The position numbers and the translations under genes were made by a program. Below are positions 12,706-25,761 of a stretch of DNA of 64,000 nt, piece after piece. The DNA is from Akkermansia sp. N21116. GTDB taxonomy: Bacteria; Verrucomicrobiota; Verrucomicrobiia; Verrucomicrobiales; Akkermansiaceae. The notes beneath the pieces are model-generated. The model was not told where the DNA came from. It saw only the letters and a list, made by a program, of their open reading frames with translations, and made no database searches. Position 1 is the stretch's first letter. Each line of letters opens with the position of its first letter. Where the stretch lies: contig NZ_CP139035.1 of NCBI RefSeq assembly GCF_029854705.2, positions 1,364,001 through 1,428,000 on the forward strand. Reading direction: 5' to 3'.

Positions 12706-15564
12706 TCAGGAGTCTTTTTTATCCTTGGTTCCCTTGAGGAAGTCTTCTGCCTGCTTCTTCATGAGCGTCCTTACTTCGTTGGCTGCGGTTGAATCGGCAT
12801 GTTTTAAGTAATGTCTGGTGAGGCAGTCGTAAAAGTCGGTAATTTTTGCCTTGTCGTCCTTCAATGTATAAAGAAGGTCCTCTGGACACTTGTCGATCAT
12901 CTCTCTAAGCCATGGCACTAGTTCCGCACGCGGCATGACCATGGCGGCTGCGTTGATTTCGAGAGTCAATTGTTCGGGAGTTGTTTTCAGTTCTTTCTTC
13001 TTTTTACTCTTCGAGGCGTTTTTATAGAAGCGGACTATTTCTTTGAAGCCGTAGTTGATGCTGTTAACGATGGGTTTGTAGCCCTGTGTCATGGCGAGAG
13101 CAACCTGGTATCCTTGCTCCTTGTCCGGGTAAGAACTGTTTTTAGCTTCGGAACGCATCCAGTCCATGACTTTACCCCATTCGCTCTTGGTGTAATTGGG
13201 CAGGGGTTTGTCGGAGGCCAGTTCGAGCATAGCGGACCCGAGCGTATCCGTGTATTCATGGGCCTGATTGTTAAGGCGCTGCTTATAGTTTTTGGGGGCT
13301 TTTCCCATTCTTGGGTTGGATTTCATGCGTTGCCAGAGGCTGGCGACGCGGTCTCCGGGCGGGATTGCCTTATTGATGTTATCGATGCAATCCATGGCGG
13401 CTTTCATGTCTCCCCCAGCTTTTTCGAATCGCGAGTACCATGCTTCCGTATAGAATGGATTGATTCTGACGACTTCCGCGAGCATATTTTTCTGGATTTC
13501 TTCCGGAGCTTTTTCTTCGACTGCCATTTTATAGATGTTCATGGCGATCCTGCTATCTGTCCATGCTCCGTCTTTGAGGTTCATGCTTGCGGCAAGACCG
13601 ACATGGTATTCTCCGCAGTTGTTTCGCGGTCCTTCATTGTCGCAAAGATATTGTCCTCCAAATGTTTTTTTGAGGGGAGCAACGGATTGATCGATGGACA
13701 GAATACTGCCTCCTGCTCCGTAATGGTAGGTCATCAGGTTGGCGTGGATTGGTTGTCCGGCCGGGGAGGCGGGGCTTCCCATGGCAATGTGGGATGTGCG
13801 GGCGATGGTGGACATGGTACCGCACATGCCGCCAATGTGGATGAGACCGGGGTAGGACATATAGTTCCAATCCGGATTGGGATCCATGGAAAACAGAGCG
13901 GGAGGTTCCGGATCGCTGACTTTACGGTAAGGGCCATAGCGCCAGAGACGAGGCTCTCCGTATTTGCCCAGGTAACGGTCCCATACGTATTCGCATTCAC
14001 GGATGGGGCGGGTTTCGCTCAGGGGAAGCATAGCGAGCCACGGAGTACAGTCCAGAGGGACTCCGTTCCATTCGACGGAATGGTTTTTAACGTCGCGCAT
14101 TTTGCCGATACCTTCGTATTTGGAGACGAGGTATTTGAAGAATTCGGCCGGGCTGGGGAATCCGTCCCTCTTGCTTTTTATTTGGCCCGAGAGGATCATG
14201 TAGGATTTTAAAACACTGAGGATGTTGTCCTTGGTGACTCCTTTATCGGCCAAATCCTTGACAGTGGTTTCCTTATTGATCCACGCCTGTTTTGCCGTGA
14301 TGTTTTTGGAGGCAAGGTAGTTTTTGACAGCTTCGAATTGTTCTGAGTTTCCCGAGTCCGGATTGGGACCGTAGTAGTTGATGGGGGGCATGCCGGCGAT
14401 GAAGACATCAGCAGGCGAAGCCCATTGAGGAGAGGTCGGCAGGGTATTTCGCAGGTTAAGTCCCGCTTCCCCCATGTTATATTGGACGTTATAGAAGACT
14501 TCTCCCATACCGCAAAAACGTCTGCCGATGGCGAATGCAATAACCATCTGATCATACTTGGTGGCGTTTTTTTCTCCGACCGCGTTGATGAGGATGTCCG
14601 CATTGGTGGCAACGCTGGGATCGGGGGGGTAGAAGTTGGCAAAGATTTCCTTCTGATGTTTGGTGTCTGCCAGCCATTTCTCGAAGGTAGGAGAAAATTT
14701 GGCTTTGCGTTTTTCCAAATACTCTCGGACGAATTTTTCTGCGTAGGTGGTATAGGCATTAAGAATAGCCTCCGTCATGGCTCCCTTGCTTTTACCGACG
14801 GCAAGCATAACGTTTTTCTTGAGTTGCTGAAGCTCCGGCGATGGACTGAGATCGGGTTCCGGTTCTTCCTCGACAACCGGGGCGGGAGGCGGCTCCGGTT
14901 CTGGGATTGGTTCTGGTTCAGGAATCGGTTCTGGTTCAGGTTCGGGCTCGGGGACAGGCGGTGGTTTAGGTTTGGGGATCGGCGTGGGAGCCGGGGTATT
15001 TTGGACGACAGGCAGAGCTTCCTGTGGCTGGTTCAACATTTTGTAACCGAAGAATCCCGCAATGCCCAGACAGAGGAGAATAATGATCGCAAGAGCGCCG
15101 CCTCCGGATTTTTTCGGTTTGTAGGCAACAGGTTGTAATGGCCGGGCCGGGGTTCCTGCAATATGCCCGCGTTGAAGTGTCGGCTTGTTCCTGGGAACCT
15201 GTGGAGATGCTGGCGCGATAGACGGCGCGTTTGCTTCTTCCTGGAGATTGTCAGGGGAGTGGGTGATATACAGGATAGTTCCGTGGGAGTGTTGTTCGGT
15301 TGCTCCTTGTCCGTAATGTGTTAAGAAAAGTTTTTTTGCGGCTGCCAATTGTGGTGCCATGGCTTTGTTGAAAACGAGCTTGATCCCGTCATCGGTGCGT
15401 CTGGTGCAGTCCTGGGGACAGAATTCCCGAATGAGCATGGGAATGCCTTGCGGGGTGATTGCCCTGTAGAGGTGGTAAAGTTCCGTTGATTCGACAACGG
15501 AGACGATTTGGAAATCTTCCAGAAGAGTATCCGGTGCGAGGGGGGGGACGGGGAAAGACATCAT
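12706..15564 (-). CDS. membrane protein: kinase N-lobe-like, Pro/Glu linker, transglutaminase-like domain (copy 1)
   Basis: 952 residues from ATG 15564; a TTG at 15576 adds four. Order of parts: (1) cytoplasmic region, about 1-100, resembling only the N-lobe of bacterial Ser/Thr kinases (LEDFQIVSVVESTELYHLYR, then IPMLIREFCPQDCTRR in place of a VAIKEYLP-type strand, ending at GTILYI); (2) membrane helix about 156-172; (3) Pro/Glu spacer about 190-240; (4) helical region; (5) transglutaminase-like core with GGMCGTMS (C581), GQPIHANL (H607) and SIDQSV (D625); (6) helical C-terminal third. Kinase catalytic loop and DFG motif are absent. The exported part presumably acts in the periplasm; substrate and reaction are unknown. 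A tandem paralogue lies upstream and hemW follows closely. Confidence 0.72.
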   Translation of the reverse strand: MMSFPVPPLAPDTLLEDFQIVSVVESTELYHLYRAITPQGIPMLIREFCPQDCTRRTDDGIKLVFNKAMAPQLAAAKKLFLTHYGQGATEQHSHGTILYITHSPDNLQEEANAPSIAPASPQVPRNKPTLQRGHIAGTPARPLQPVAYKPKKSGGGALAIIILLCLGIAGFFGYKMLNQPQEALPVVQNTPAPTPIPKPKPPPVPEPEPEPEPIPEPEPIPEPEPPPAPVVEEEPEPDLSPSPELQQLKKNVMLAVGKSKGAMTEAILNAYTTYAEKFVREYLEKRKAKFSPTFEKWLADTKHQKEIFANFYPPDPSVATNADILINAVGEKNATKYDQMVIAFAIGRRFCGMGEVFYNVQYNMGEAGLNLRNTLPTSPQWASPADVFIAGMPPINYYGPNPDSGNSEQFEAVKNYLASKNITAKQAWINKETTVKDLADKGVTKDNILSVLKSYMILSGQIKSKRDGFPSPAEFFKYLVSKYEGIGKMRDVKNHSVEWNGVPLDCTPWLAMLPLSETRPIRECEYVWDRYLGKYGEPRLWRYGPYRKVSDPEPPALFSMDPNPDWNYMSYPGLIHIGGMCGTMSTIARTSHIAMGSPASPAGQPIHANLMTYHYGAGGSILSIDQSVAPLKKTFGGQYLCDNEGPRNNCGEYHVGLAASMNLKDGAWTDSRIAMNIYKMAVEEKAPEEIQKNMLAEVVRINPFYTEAWYSRFEKAGGDMKAAMDCIDNINKAIPPGDRVASLWQRMKSNPRMGKAPKNYKQRLNNQAHEYTDTLGSAMLELASDKPLPNYTKSEWGKVMDWMRSEAKNSSYPDKEQGYQVALAMTQGYKPIVNSINYGFKEIVRFYKNASKSKKKKELKTTPEQLTLEINAAAMVMPRAELVPWLREMIDKCPEDLLYTLKDDKAKITDFYDCLTRHYLKHADSTAANEVRTLMKKQAEDFLKGTKDKKDS
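14863..14970 (-). repeat. imperfect repeat coding a Pro/Glu/Ile-rich spacer
   Basis: Short degenerate hexanucleotide-like units read as PEPEPEPEP and PEPIPEPEP in the large membrane protein. The matching part of the paralogue (17905-17975) has a shorter, more regular PEP run. This is a typical extended periplasm-spanning linker. Confidence 0.75.
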
Positions 15565-15697
15565 GAGAGGAGACAACTACCGGGAAACTTATCATTCCAC
15601 TTTTCATCTGACAATGGGAAAAGTCACAAAGGCCATGAGACATAGGAAGAACGACATGCATCTATCCTATGGGTCGCTGAGAGTACATGACGAAGAC

Positions 15698-15736
15698 AAA
15701 AAAAGGTTCCTCGCCGTGAGCCGGCAAAGGAACCTT
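15698..15736 (-). terminator. intrinsic terminator after copy 2
   Basis: On the minus strand, arms AAGGTTCCT and AGGAACCTT, extended inside by a GCCG/CGGC pairing, are followed by seven T. It separates the two paralogues into different transcripts. Confidence 0.85.
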
Positions 15737-15767
15737 CTGAAGGTGAGGCGAATGGTTGAGGAGTGTG

Positions 15768-18548
15768 TTATTCGTCCTTACCTTTCATGTTTTCAATAAA
15801 TTCTTTTTCCTGTTTTTTTACGAGTTCCCTTATTTCAGAGGCCGATCCGGAATCAGCCAGTCTGATATAGTGAGCAGTGAGACAATCATAGAATTCCGTA
15901 ATTTTGGCACCGTTGTCTTTACGTTTGAATTGCAGATTGGGAGGGGAATCATCGATCATTTTCCGAAGCCATGGGACGGATTCTTCCGGAGGAAGGACCA
16001 TGACGGCAGCATTGATCTCCAGAGTCAGCTGGGTCATCATCTCTTCAGGCTTTTTCTTGGGAGGGCGGCGATTCTTGGATTTGCTCTTCAAGTGGCGGAC
16101 GATTTCCTTGAAATCATGATCGACGCTATTGACAATGGGCTTGTAACCCTGCGTTTTGGCGAGGGCTATCTGATAGCCTTGTTCCTTATCAGGATAGATG
16201 CTCTTCTTGGCAGCGGAGCGCATCCATGTAAGCACTTTTTCCCATCCGCGCTTGTCGTATGTGGGAAGAGGCTTTTTCATGGCCAGTTCGATCATGGCGG
16301 AGCTGAGTGTGTCCGTATATTCGAAGGCCTGGTTATTGAGCCTGTCCTTGTAATTTCTGCTGGCTCTTCCCATTTTGGAGTTGGTTTTTTTACGTTTCCA
16401 GAGGTTGGCGACACGGCTGCTGTCAGGGATGGCTTTGTAGATATCGTCAATGCAGGACATGGCGGCAGCTAGGTCTTCTCCCCGGCGTTCGAAGACTGTG
16501 TACCAGGCATCGGTGAAGAACGGGTTGAGCTTGAGAATGCCTTGAAGAAGGGTATCCAAAACTTGGTCGGGTACTTCTTTTTCTTTGGCCATTTTGTAAA
16601 CATTCATGGCCAGACGGCTGTTCATCCAGTCTGCATCGTCCAGATTCATGCTGGCAGCAATACCGACATGGTATTCACCGTTGCCGGCACGTTTGGTGGT
16701 CGTATCTCTCAGGTAGAGGGGGCCGGTCGTTACCTTGAGAGTGTCGACGGACTGATCAACGGTCAGGATGCTGCCGCTGGCATTGTAATGGAATGTCATC
16801 AAGTTGCCGTGTCCGGGCTGTCCGGCGGGTGGTGTCGGGATGCCGAGTGCAATGGACGCATCGCGGGCAATAAGCGACATAGTCCCGCAAACGCCTCCGA
16901 CATGAAGGCAACTAGGATAGGCATCGTAGCTCCAGTCGGGATTGGGATCCATGGAAAACTGGACAGGAGGATTCGGTTCGTCGTCTCGGCGGTAGGGACC
17001 GTAGAACCACATTCTGGGTTCTCCGAATTTGCCGAGGTAGCGGTCCCATACATATTCGCATTCGCGGATGGGGCGGGTTTCGCTCAGAGGAAGCATGGCC
17101 AGCCAGGGTGTGTATTCCAGTGGTACTCCCTTCCATTCGACCGGGTGGTTTTTGACGTCCCTCATTTTTCCGATGCCTTCGTATTTGTTGACGAGGTATT
17201 GGAAGAATTCAGCGGGAGGAGGGAAGGCGTCCCTCTTGCGCTTAATCTGTTTGTTGCGGTAGAGATGTTCGTGAAGGAGGCTGACAATGTTATTTTTTGT
17301 GACACCTTTGTCGGCAAGGTCCTTGACGACAGTTTCCTGGGAAACCCACGCCTGCTTGGCAGTCATGTTTTTGGCAGTCAGGTAGGCGGCAAGCGCTTCG
17401 TAAGCTTTGTCGTCGACGCTGGCTGGATTGCTGCCGTAGAAGTTGATGGGAGGCTTCTTCGCGATAAAGAGGTCGGCAGGGGATGCCCAGTCTCTGGAGC
17501 CGGAAGCCGCATTGAGGTACCATTGGTGGTATTTGCCCTCTTTGCCCATATCGAAGCTGCCCATGCCGACATGGCGTCTGCCGACGGCGAAGGCAATGAC
17601 CATTTGGTCGTACTTGAAAGCATTTTCACCGACGGCGTTGATCAGGATGTCTGCGTTGGTAGCGACACTGGGATCCGGTGGATAGAAATTGGCGAAGATT
17701 TCCTTCTGGTGTTTTGTCTCCTTCATCCATTTTTCAAAAGCCGGCGAAAATGCTCCCCCTCGCACGGTGATATATTCCCGGACGAAATGTTCCGCGTATT
17801 GGGAGTAAGCATTGAGGACGGCATCGTTGATAGCTCCTTTGCTTTTGGCAAGAGCCAGGATGACATTTCTTTCCAGCTGCTGAAGGCTGTCGGATGGATT
17901 GTAAACGGGTTCCGGCTCAGGCTCGGGTTCCGGCTCAGGTTCGTCGGGCTCAGGCTCGGGTTCCGGCTCGTCCTTGACGACGGGAGGCGCCACAGGTTTT
18001 GGTTTGGGCTTGGGGGGAGGAGTGTTATGGACGACCGGCACAGGAGGAGGCGGTTCCATGTTCATGATCTGATACCCCAGATAGGCGATAAGAGCTGCCA
18101 GACCGAGAATCACGGCAGGCATGAATCCTACACTGCTTCGTTTGGGCTTGTAGTCGACAGGTACGGCTGGAAGGGGGGCGTTTTCTGCTGCCTGGGGTAC
18201 TGCTGATGCCCTTTTTCTGGTAGCGACGACGGGTGTCTGCTGGGGTGTTTGGATAAAGAAAATGGTTCCCAGAGCAGAGATCTCCATGGAACCGGAGGCA
18301 TATTTGAGCGTAAATTCGGATTTAGCCTGAGAAATGGCTTGGCTATTGGCCGAAGAAAAGACGAGCTTGCCGGAATTTTCTTCTCGGCGAGCATATTCCT
18401 GTGGACAGAATTCATGAATCAATACGGTTTCACCCTGCGGGGAAACAGCTTGATATAAATGGTACAACTCTGTCGATTCCTGATGGGCCGAGATGCGGTA
18501 CCCTTCCAGGAGGAATTGAATAGGGAGTGGGGATACATGATGAGCCAT
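15768..18548 (-). CDS. membrane protein: kinase N-lobe-like, Pro/Glu linker, transglutaminase-like domain (copy 2)
   Basis: 926 residues, colinear with the downstream paralogue over the whole length and identical at more than half of the positions by eye. The N-terminal region (about 10-100) resembles the first half of a Ser/Thr kinase: FLLEGYRI, LYHLYQAVSPQGETVLIHEF and CPQEYARR, ending at GTIFFIQT. There is no P-loop glycine series, catalytic loop or DFG. A membrane helix (about 141-162) and a PEPEPEP spacer (about 173-214) follow. The transglutaminase-like core has GGVCGTMS (C554), GQPGHGNL (H580) and TVDQSV (D598). The strongest block shared with copy 1 is WLAMLPLSETRPIRECEYV. A terminator follows, and the start ATG 18548 has no Shine-Dalgarno. 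Function unknown. Confidence 0.72.
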   Translation of the reverse strand: MAHHVSPLPIQFLLEGYRISAHQESTELYHLYQAVSPQGETVLIHEFCPQEYARREENSGKLVFSSANSQAISQAKSEFTLKYASGSMEISALGTIFFIQTPQQTPVVATRKRASAVPQAAENAPLPAVPVDYKPKRSSVGFMPAVILGLAALIAYLGYQIMNMEPPPPVPVVHNTPPPKPKPKPVAPPVVKDEPEPEPEPDEPEPEPEPEPEPVYNPSDSLQQLERNVILALAKSKGAINDAVLNAYSQYAEHFVREYITVRGGAFSPAFEKWMKETKHQKEIFANFYPPDPSVATNADILINAVGENAFKYDQMVIAFAVGRRHVGMGSFDMGKEGKYHQWYLNAASGSRDWASPADLFIAKKPPINFYGSNPASVDDKAYEALAAYLTAKNMTAKQAWVSQETVVKDLADKGVTKNNIVSLLHEHLYRNKQIKRKRDAFPPPAEFFQYLVNKYEGIGKMRDVKNHPVEWKGVPLEYTPWLAMLPLSETRPIRECEYVWDRYLGKFGEPRMWFYGPYRRDDEPNPPVQFSMDPNPDWSYDAYPSCLHVGGVCGTMSLIARDASIALGIPTPPAGQPGHGNLMTFHYNASGSILTVDQSVDTLKVTTGPLYLRDTTTKRAGNGEYHVGIAASMNLDDADWMNSRLAMNVYKMAKEKEVPDQVLDTLLQGILKLNPFFTDAWYTVFERRGEDLAAAMSCIDDIYKAIPDSSRVANLWKRKKTNSKMGRASRNYKDRLNNQAFEYTDTLSSAMIELAMKKPLPTYDKRGWEKVLTWMRSAAKKSIYPDKEQGYQIALAKTQGYKPIVNSVDHDFKEIVRHLKSKSKNRRPPKKKPEEMMTQLTLEINAAVMVLPPEESVPWLRKMIDDSPPNLQFKRKDNGAKITEFYDCLTAHYIRLADSGSASEIRELVKKQEKEFIENMKGKDE

Positions 18549-22964: not shown

Positions 22965-23005
22965 TTGATATTCCCTGAGGTTCCTCTCTGGGAACCGTAT
23001 GATGA

Positions 23006-23041
23006 AAAAGCCTGTTCTGTGTAATTCGGGACAGGCTTTTT
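23006..23041 (+). terminator. intrinsic terminator after the ROK-like gene
   Basis: Perfect arms AAAAGCCTGT and ACAGGCTTTT around a 15-base loop, with a T tail. It lies inside an upstream extension of the next open frame, which helps to rule out early starts for the kinase gene. Confidence 0.9.
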
Positions 23042-23106
23042 CGAATTTGATGCAGGAGAGGTTCATAGGCGAATTTTTTATATCGTCCGTTGACGGAGCT
23101 CATGGT

Positions 23107-25761
23107 ATGAAGTTGTCAGACGCATTCTCTGATATAACGAATGGTCTTCCGGCATGTACTATGAGTGACGATCCTACCAGCAATTCCCCGAATGAGCAGA
23201 TGATGTGTCCGCATTGTGGGCACCCGATGAATATTTCCGGATTGAGGCCATTTTCTAAAGTCGACTGTCCGGCCTGTGGTCAGGGAACCCGGGTGCATAC
23301 CCAGTTGGGGGTGTATCGGATTTTGGATTGTGTCGGCAGGGGAGGGATGAGTGAAATTTTCCGGGCTGAAGATACGATTCTCGGTCGCATTATTGCGTTA
23401 AAAATTCTGAACGAAAACTATTCTTCCCAGAAAGATCGCGTAGAAAAGTTCGAGCAGGAAGCTCAGATCATGGCCAAGGTTCGCCATGAGAACATTGTCA
23501 AGGTCTATACGGTCGGGCGTGCTTTTGGTCATGTGTTTATTGCGATGGAATTGGTAAATGGGCGCGATCTTGAAACGCTCATGAAGTTGCGAGGCGAACC
23601 TATCCCGGAACCGGAGGCTCTGGAAATTGCTCTTCAGTCGGTAGAGGGCCTGATGGCGGCTGATGACGCCGGTCTTGTACACCGTGACGTCAAACCGGCT
23701 AATATTCTTTTGGATGCATCCGGGACATGCAAAATCGTCGATTTCGGTCTTTCTTTGCTGCAATCGGAAAAGGATGATTCGGAAGAGATTTGGGTAACTC
23801 CTTATTATGCATCTCCGGAAGCCCTGCGGCGTGAATTGGAAGATTCCCGCTCCGACATGTATGCCCTGGGTGTGACTCTGTTCCAGATGTTGTCCGGAAA
23901 GACTCCTTTTGAGACGATTCCCAGTTCCGTTCATGCATTGCTGGATATCAAGAAGAAGATTCCTTCCGTTCGGCGGGTTGCTCCGGAATTGTCTCCGATG
24001 ACCCGTCATATTGTCGATAAGTTGATGAACTTCGACAAGGAAAAACGCTATCAGTCATATGCTGAACTTCGGGATGATCTGATCCAGGCTCATGCGCTTC
24101 TTGCCTCGGAGGACGGAGATTGGAGGGTCAAGCGATCCAGTCTTATCAGGAGGTACAAGAGGAATCGTTTCCGCATGATTGCTGCGATTTGCGCTGGGGG
24201 GATACTCTTGGCCGGAGGGATTGTGTTTTGGATAACGAGCCTTCAAAAAGTTTCTCAGACGGATGTTCCTCCCATTGTCAAGGAGGAGGAGAAAGCCCCT
24301 GTTGTTCACATGATGAACGGAGAGGAAATAGGGCAAGCCTATTTGCATGCCGAAGAAACGCTGAAATCCGGTTATCTGGATGATGCCCGCCGGCAGTTTG
24401 AACGCCTGTTGGATGAACAGCGTTGCCCTCTTGCAACGGCGGCCTGGTCGGCATTGAATGCCGCCTATGCCTGCTGGATACTCGGGGATGACCACCACGG
24501 GCGTTTTCTGATGCAGCAAATGGTGGACAGAGTGGAAAAAAATGGAGAATCTGCCGAAGCGAAAGGGAGTGCCGTAGATGTCATGGAGTTAATGAAGGCA
24601 TTGCTGGCTTCTTCCCAAGAGGAGAATGTCCGGAATTTTGAAGCGGGTGATCCGATGCTGTTATATTGGCTTGTCGGTTCGGGCTTGAAAGCATGGAAGG
24701 AGGGTAACATCACCCGGGCAGCTTCTTTGTTTGCCAGGTTGGAGGAATTATCTCAGACAGAGGGGGAGGGGATATCCGGCAGAACCTGGAATAATCTTTT
24801 ATCTTCGTATATTCAGGATGCTGCCTCTGTGAAAAAGTTGATGTCTATGCCGGACGAGACATTACCGCAAGCCCGTACCAAATTGGACGGCTTGATGAAT
24901 CCGCCCGATCAGCAAAGTCCGGGGACTGCGTACAAAAGAATTCTTGCAAGTCTGGTCAGGCAGCAGGAGGCCCATGTCCTGGATTTGAAGGAAAGATCGA
25001 GGGATGACGGCGATCTTTCGCCATCCGGGCAGGATTCTTCCCGGCAGAAGGATCCCGAAGATCAAGGCCAGCCTCAGGAAGATGAACAGGCTCGTATTCA
25101 GCGTGAGCGCGAGCAGGAAGAAATCCGCCGTGCCCAGGAAGCGGAACGGCAGCAGGAGGCTGAACGACTGAAGCTTCAGGAACAAACCCTGCAGAAGAAC
25201 CGAGAAACTGTCCAGAAGGGAGTGGTCAGGGCGGTTGAATTGATGGAAAAGTCCTGGAATTTCTCTTCGGCAATGGAGGAGTTGCGCAAGGTGGAAGAAT
25301 TCGCCGTTCATGACGATTCGTTGAAGGACCGGGTACAGGCATATCTGGAAATGGCTTCTCTGGCGGATGGGTTTATGGCGAAAACTCTGGAACAGTCTCT
25401 TCGCCTGCCTCAGCCCAAAAGGCAGCTCGCCTTGCAGGATGGAACGACGGTGCAGCTACAGGGGTATGACAAGAGCAAGAATCTCATCACCGTGATGACT
25501 CCAAGTGGACGTGTTTCGCGTCCGGCGCATGATCTGGGGATTCATACGATGATTCGCTTGCATCGTGCGTGTCTGGCGCAGTCTGGAGCCAAACCCGCCG
25601 AGGAGAGACAGCGCCATCGGGATGCCCTTGTTTTTATGTTTTTGGCGGGCGGACGCGAATCTGCTGTTTCGACCATGGAAAAATGGCTTCTGTCCAGCCC
25701 GGATAATACGTTGGAATTTATGAACCAATGGCAGGGATGGATGATTGCCTTGGATGAATGA
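23107..25761 (+). CDS. transmembrane Ser/Thr protein kinase with N-terminal zinc ribbon
   Basis: 884 residues from ATG 23107, chosen because GGAG lies 8 bases upstream (23095-23098). Parts: zinc ribbon CPHC...CPAC (C34, C37, C54, C57); kinase domain about 69-330 with glycine loop GRGGMSEIF, ATP lysine K99 in ALKIL, catalytic loop HRDVKPANIL (D195), DFGLS (212-216) and SPEA; membrane helix about 357-378; helical repeat region; a charged Gln/Glu/Arg-rich coiled coil (about 670-715); and a C-terminal domain with a DGTTVQLQGYD...SGRVSRP hairpin resembling SHD1-like modules. All catalytic residues are present, so it should be active. The C-terminal half is probably extracytoplasmic and sensory. 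A lipoprotein gene follows 71 bp later. Confidence 0.88.
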   Translation: MKLSDAFSDITNGLPACTMSDDPTSNSPNEQMMCPHCGHPMNISGLRPFSKVDCPACGQGTRVHTQLGVYRILDCVGRGGMSEIFRAEDTILGRIIALKILNENYSSQKDRVEKFEQEAQIMAKVRHENIVKVYTVGRAFGHVFIAMELVNGRDLETLMKLRGEPIPEPEALEIALQSVEGLMAADDAGLVHRDVKPANILLDASGTCKIVDFGLSLLQSEKDDSEEIWVTPYYASPEALRRELEDSRSDMYALGVTLFQMLSGKTPFETIPSSVHALLDIKKKIPSVRRVAPELSPMTRHIVDKLMNFDKEKRYQSYAELRDDLIQAHALLASEDGDWRVKRSSLIRRYKRNRFRMIAAICAGGILLAGGIVFWITSLQKVSQTDVPPIVKEEEKAPVVHMMNGEEIGQAYLHAEETLKSGYLDDARRQFERLLDEQRCPLATAAWSALNAAYACWILGDDHHGRFLMQQMVDRVEKNGESAEAKGSAVDVMELMKALLASSQEENVRNFEAGDPMLLYWLVGSGLKAWKEGNITRAASLFARLEELSQTEGEGISGRTWNNLLSSYIQDAASVKKLMSMPDETLPQARTKLDGLMNPPDQQSPGTAYKRILASLVRQQEAHVLDLKERSRDDGDLSPSGQDSSRQKDPEDQGQPQEDEQARIQREREQEEIRRAQEAERQQEAERLKLQEQTLQKNRETVQKGVVRAVELMEKSWNFSSAMEELRKVEEFAVHDDSLKDRVQAYLEMASLADGFMAKTLEQSLRLPQPKRQLALQDGTTVQLQGYDKSKNLITVMTPSGRVSRPAHDLGIHTMIRLHRACLAQSGAKPAEERQRHRDALVFMFLAGGRESAVSTMEKWLLSSPDNTLEFMNQWQGWMIALDE

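Follow-up and report, generated by a model that had tools for sequence, protein, structure and literature searches.

A kinase domain is generally regarded as an indivisible unit of two lobes, and pseudokinases, to our knowledge, keep both. The closest described systems are the PpkA-type kinases (PDB 5x1r, 5hnv), which have a full kinase domain, glycine loop and Lys included; the MviN (ActPs3) pseudokinase (PMC12599244), which is kinase-derived, catalytically impaired and carried on an envelope protein and, like other bacterial pseudokinases, retains both lobes; and HipS of HipBST (PMC9325769), a soluble antitoxin that demonstrates that the N-terminal part of a kinase can act in trans. PknB and the MviN pseudokinase both form back-to-back N-lobe dimers (PMC12599244; PMC6333020). 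The two tandem genes described here, P0001 and P0002, share with PpkA the N-lobe fold and a strand-3 motif (IKEYMP / IREFCP) with its conserved Arg, and with MviN a kinase-derived, impaired domain on an envelope protein; unlike either, they possess just the N-lobe, from which the glycine loop and Lys are gone. HipS, a trans-acting homologue of the N-terminal part of a kinase, is similar in that respect, but matches N-terminal subdomain 1 of HipA and not a Hanks N-lobe. Outside the cell membrane, the two proteins resemble the transglutaminase-like superfamily (PF01841) in the order of the G-x-C, GxPA, H and W motifs, in core Cys-His spacing and through a chain of profile matches, and differ from it in having GGxCG..S and QPxH in place of GxCxD and HAW, and in an Asp that is not conserved.

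Both genes lie on the minus strand of the window, by which we mean the whole 64,000-nucleotide stretch of Akkermansia sp. N21116 that was analysed; the source genome is a single contig of 3.5 Mb. P0002 (15768..18548) encodes 926 amino acids from an ATG start, and P0001 (12706..15561) encodes 951 from its ATG, or 956 from an alternative TTG five codons upstream at 15576; both frames are intact. The products are tandem paralogs with 61% identity, and the gene order is P0002, some 200 bases, P0001 and then a HemW-like gene. As the single ortholog in each of two other genomes (G172 and G193) is likewise followed by a HemW-like gene, the site is conserved, and the pair reflects a tandem duplication there. 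In G172, a short protein encoded directly upstream of the N-lobe-GGVCG gene (L078:11046-11693) resembles an L,D-transpeptidase by eye. A terminator-like hairpin with a T run between P0002 and P0001 (15709..15729, minus strand) suggests that they form separate transcripts, on the strength of a consensus scan which returned 17 such sites in the region against 8.7 expected. Full-length orthologs in other Akkermansia genomes share approximately 43-45% identity with the pair, and one (L046) approximately 70%; all nameable orthologs belong to Akkermansia or Akkermansiaceae. Searches of Pfam and NCBIfam with both proteins returned composition-only matches and no named family, in keeping with the statement in the initial annotation that no named family has this layout, and in the open literature (which mostly excludes subscription journals) we found no account of either protein or of bacterial kinases reduced to the N-lobe.

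The initial annotation had read the N-terminus as the first half of a kinase that ends at the hinge without a C-lobe, and had called for structure prediction and fold searches of this segment; the prediction gave a confident kinase N-lobe fold, and the fold searches put PpkA in first place. An alignment of residues 1-104 of P0001 (15250..15561, minus strand), P0002 (18237..18548, minus strand), their orthologs and a second protein type described below was compared by hhalign with N-lobes from six kinases encoded in the same genome, and matched at 96.7% (E 4.4e-10, 99 columns); unrelated alignments compared with each other as negative controls scored 0.1-0.5%, so that at the level of sequence profiles the resemblance is well above chance. 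The AlphaFold model (pLDDT 86) has the five strands and C-helix of a kinase N-lobe, assigned in P0002 to residues 17-25 (b1), 29-35 (b2), 41-47 (b3), 66-83 (C-helix), 88-92 (b4) and 95-100 (b5). PpkA ranked first for this model in Foldseek (E 5.2e-5, query TM 0.72) and in VIA (Z 13.6 over 104 residues, the next kinase scoring 9.1), and was the sole match in a PDB sequence search (E 0.025). Strand 5 ends at residue 100, whereupon model confidence drops and a linker starts, from which we conclude that the P0002 chain stops at the kinase hinge. After strand 5, neither protein has a C-lobe, HRD or DFG motif or a Pkinase match; the linker and a membrane helix follow instead.

The residues expected of an active kinase are also missing from the lobe that remains. 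The glycine-rich loop is lost, with kinase GAGGFG aligned to ESTELY / ENGPDY; the VAIK Lys is replaced in every N-lobe found, by Arg in nearly all, including P0001, and by His in P0002; the C-helix shows no conserved Glu, and the loop from it to strand 4 is shortened. Some features do persist, namely Tyr-x-Ala in strand 2, Glu and Pro in the strand-3 motif with the Arg that follows, and Gly-Thr in strand 5; 15 positions in all are invariant across both N-lobe protein types. Sequence and model thus identify the predicted cytoplasmic head as a kinase N-lobe without a C-lobe, whose ATP-binding and catalytic residues are gone, and relate it to VxIKExFP-type transmembrane kinases. Judged against the usual description of a pseudokinase, namely degraded motifs with both lobes present, the motifs are degraded and just one lobe is found.

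As the initial annotation had supposed, one membrane helix and a Pro/Glu spacer follow. The helix of P0002 (approximately residues 140-158; 18075..18131, minus strand) is the sole hydrophobic window above 1.6 and is preceded by KPKRSS, and that of P0001 (approximately residues 153-172; 15046..15105, minus strand) is the sole hydrophobic segment, preceded by KPKKSG; by the positive-inside rule, both proteins are predicted to be single-pass inner-membrane proteins with the N-terminus inside and the C-terminus outside. The spacer, rich in Pro, Glu and Lys, spans approximately residues 159-220 in P0002 (17889..18074, minus strand), while that of P0001 has composition-only matches to TonB-type spacers.

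The predicted extracytoplasmic regions comprise residues 221-926 of P0002 (15771..17888, minus strand), aligned by hhalign to what we term the GGVCG family, and residues 243-951 of P0001 (12709..14835, minus strand), assigned by sequence and a profile match. The motifs GGVCG / GGMCG, GQPGH / GQPIH and DQSV are present, placing the putative active-site Cys at C554 in P0002, with H580 and an Asp in the third position, and at C580 of the GGMCG motif in P0001 (ATG numbering), with GQPIH. Neither protein has a direct Pfam match to PF01841. A chain of three profile comparisons nevertheless leads there: the outer region of the window matches the GGVCG family (hhalign 96.7%, E 3.4e-10), this family matches a bridge type whose motifs are GGVCRDQ and HAW (97.3%), and the bridge type matches classical transglutaminase cores (96.1%). 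Compared directly, the GGVCG family and classical transglutaminases match weakly (36%), and the connection therefore depends on the bridge type. The latter is represented in the same genome by an anchored protein of 756 amino acids carrying both motifs (L123; G000:C1, around 1765200), which scores above the Pfam Transglut_core cut-off and whose best PDB match, a weak one (E 0.068), bears the name of a transglutaminase-like enzyme; the GGVCG profile itself had no match among PDB sequences. Structure prediction was of little help in this region, as an AlphaFold model of 706 residues built from eight sequences had pLDDT below 50 over the core, and a VIA search with this low-confidence model returned only helical-repeat matches (Z up to 8.7), which we take to be uninformative.

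Cys and His are invariant in the outer-family alignments, which together with the profile chain bears out the proposed exported transglutaminase-like domain and two members of the Cys/His/Asp triad suggested alongside it. The third does not hold: where VDQSV has its Asp, 11 of 15 complete distinct orthologs have Gly (a count which leaves out one listed row, a truncated P0002 copy), and relatives in the wider family have Gly, Tyr or Phe at this position. On these two conserved residues and the profile chain, we assign the outer part of both proteins to a transglutaminase-like Cys-His family. At E 1e-6, proteins with the GGxCG and QPxH motifs of its core were detected in 74 of 388 Verrucomicrobiota genomes; the window's own genome has six matches.

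The N-lobe module has a far narrower range. A profile search across Verrucomicrobiota, which the initial annotation had proposed, recovered the N-lobe module in the genus Akkermansia alone, among 145 genomes of the family and 368 of the phylum. Its 25 matches fall at E <= 2.1e-38, followed, after a drop to 7.7e-10, by a complete pseudokinase. Carriers are of two protein types: that of P0001 and P0002, and one of approximately 1460-1506 amino acids in which the N-lobe and a membrane helix precede PDZ and DUF6288 domains. An example of the second (L035:5741-10189; 1482 amino acids), with orthologs in most muciniphila-type genomes, has the same N-lobe module and membrane layout, but its outer PDZ domain and DUF6288 alpha/alpha toroid are unrelated to the transglutaminase-like domain. 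Genes of the two types stand 7-8 kb apart in eight genomes, which are most of the muciniphila-type genomes, while the window's genome holds two copies of the P0001/P0002 type and no DUF6288 match above the cut-off. Viral contigs contained no relative of the N-lobe, and phage records were likewise without a match. In a tree of 19 N-lobes (108 columns, no outside root), a branch with 100/100 support separates all N-lobe-only modules from the rest, which is consistent with a single origin but no proof of it. What appears to be new, as far as can be read from sequence, is an N-lobe-only kinase module, restricted to Akkermansia and attached to two unrelated exported proteins.

The second carrier goes beyond the initial annotation, as does the discovery of a full kinase and a pseudokinase with the same outer family. 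The former, encoded in the window's genome (L031:4910-8491; G000:C1:2918909-2922490), is a protein of 1193 amino acids with a complete Ser/Thr kinase domain, a membrane helix and an outer region that consists of a GGVCG domain, a TPR-like stretch and an F5/8 type C domain. Its ortholog in G155 (L080:2749-6303; 1184 amino acids) is a complete transmembrane pseudokinase with degraded catalytic motifs: the glycine loop is absent, K is changed to R, HRD to HGL and DFG to GLG. Both resemble P0001 and P0002 in having a related N-lobe, one membrane helix and the same outer Cys-His family, and differ in keeping both kinase lobes, in a longer outer region which ends in the F5/8 type C domain, and in an ECF-type sigma gene just upstream, identified by eye. 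Derivation of P0001 and P0002 from L031 by simple truncation is not favoured, as their outer domain is closer to those of the secreted proteins L039 and L040. The window also encodes a complete kinase of 920 amino acids (22999-25761; Pkinase E 1.5e-50), relatives of which are the top kinase match in most searched genomes of the genus.

The best reading of these observations, which we hold tentatively at a little under an even chance, is that the N-lobe would be a module of kinase origin through which exported enzymes dock or dimerise on the cytoplasmic side. Retained for protein-protein contacts, it may bind a second copy of itself, the paralog's N-lobe or that of a full kinase or pseudokinase; such pairing, for which the N-lobe dimers of PknB and MviN are precedents, would gather or control the exported enzymes at the membrane, and the outer domain may act on a cell-envelope protein or peptide through cysteine chemistry. 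The main rival is that the N-lobe is a decaying relic of a trimmed transmembrane kinase, now just a cytoplasmic cap for membrane insertion, which would leave all the work to the outer domain. Loss of the catalytic residues and the existence in the genus of a complete pseudokinase intermediate would be expected of such decay, as would the pattern of constraint: among orthologs (NG86), dN/dS is 0-0.07 in the outer core and 0.04-0.23 in the C-terminal part, and the N-lobe, with approximately 0.16-0.33 in eight of nine measurable pairs, is the least constrained segment, at several times the core value. The N-lobe values are still well below one (the ninth pair, at 1.09, has a dS of 0.04 and very few changes), and we conclude from them that the N-lobe is under purifying selection, albeit the weakest among the segments. 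The confident fold, the 15 invariant positions and the occurrence of the same module on two unrelated exported proteins also count against a relic, which we consider rather unlikely; attached to an unrelated exported protein, the same N-lobe looks reused and not merely decaying. It is this shared head, together with purifying selection, that favours function over decay.

If the N-lobe is functional, then roles other than docking merit consideration. By analogy with HipS and HipT, it might replace or block part of the catalytic domain of a partner kinase in trans, with the outer domain as sensor. Beyond the HipS precedent (PMC9325769), such regulation would fit the occurrence of kinases in all N-lobe genomes, and the sensor position of the outer family in the kinase that adjoins an ECF sigma gene. 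However, we found no kinase limited to N-lobe genomes, and none of the three partial Pkinase matches inspected (L191, L192 and L193), in a search that was not exhaustive, is a C-lobe-only partner, which leaves trans regulation improbable. A split into separate N-lobe and C-lobe proteins is similarly unsupported, as the partial kinase matches read all retain the N-lobe region; upstream in L191 and L192 lies a stretch that resembles a glycine loop. These two (G000) are near-identical atypical kinase proteins of 423 and 408 amino acids at distant sites, while L193 (G000:C1:1359500-1364500), just left of the window, is a 661-aa frame that encodes a divergent two-lobe transmembrane pseudokinase with an apparently discoidin-like C-terminus. 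More improbable still is a ligand-sensing role, in which the N-lobe would bind a nucleotide, a lipid or another small molecule and relay the signal across the membrane: kinase N-lobes do contribute to the nucleotide pocket, and the fold is confidently predicted, but the glycine loop and Lys are lost and the C-lobe half of the pocket is missing.

Within one genus, the same outer domain family is preceded variously by an intact kinase, by a complete pseudokinase and by the N-lobe alone, and the spread of this last form to a second exported protein renders the role of a lone kinase N-lobe testable. The outer domains also bring to light a family of exported Cys-His proteins that has no name and is widespread in Verrucomicrobiota. 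Extending the docking reading, we propose as a possibility, and a somewhat doubtful one, that the C-lobe-free N-lobe may be a reusable cytoplasmic assembly module of Akkermansia, which, joined to them by a membrane helix, would bring at least two unrelated exported proteins under one intracellular partner. If this is true, then such a one-partner assembly module would constitute a mode of control over envelope enzymes that is so far undescribed.
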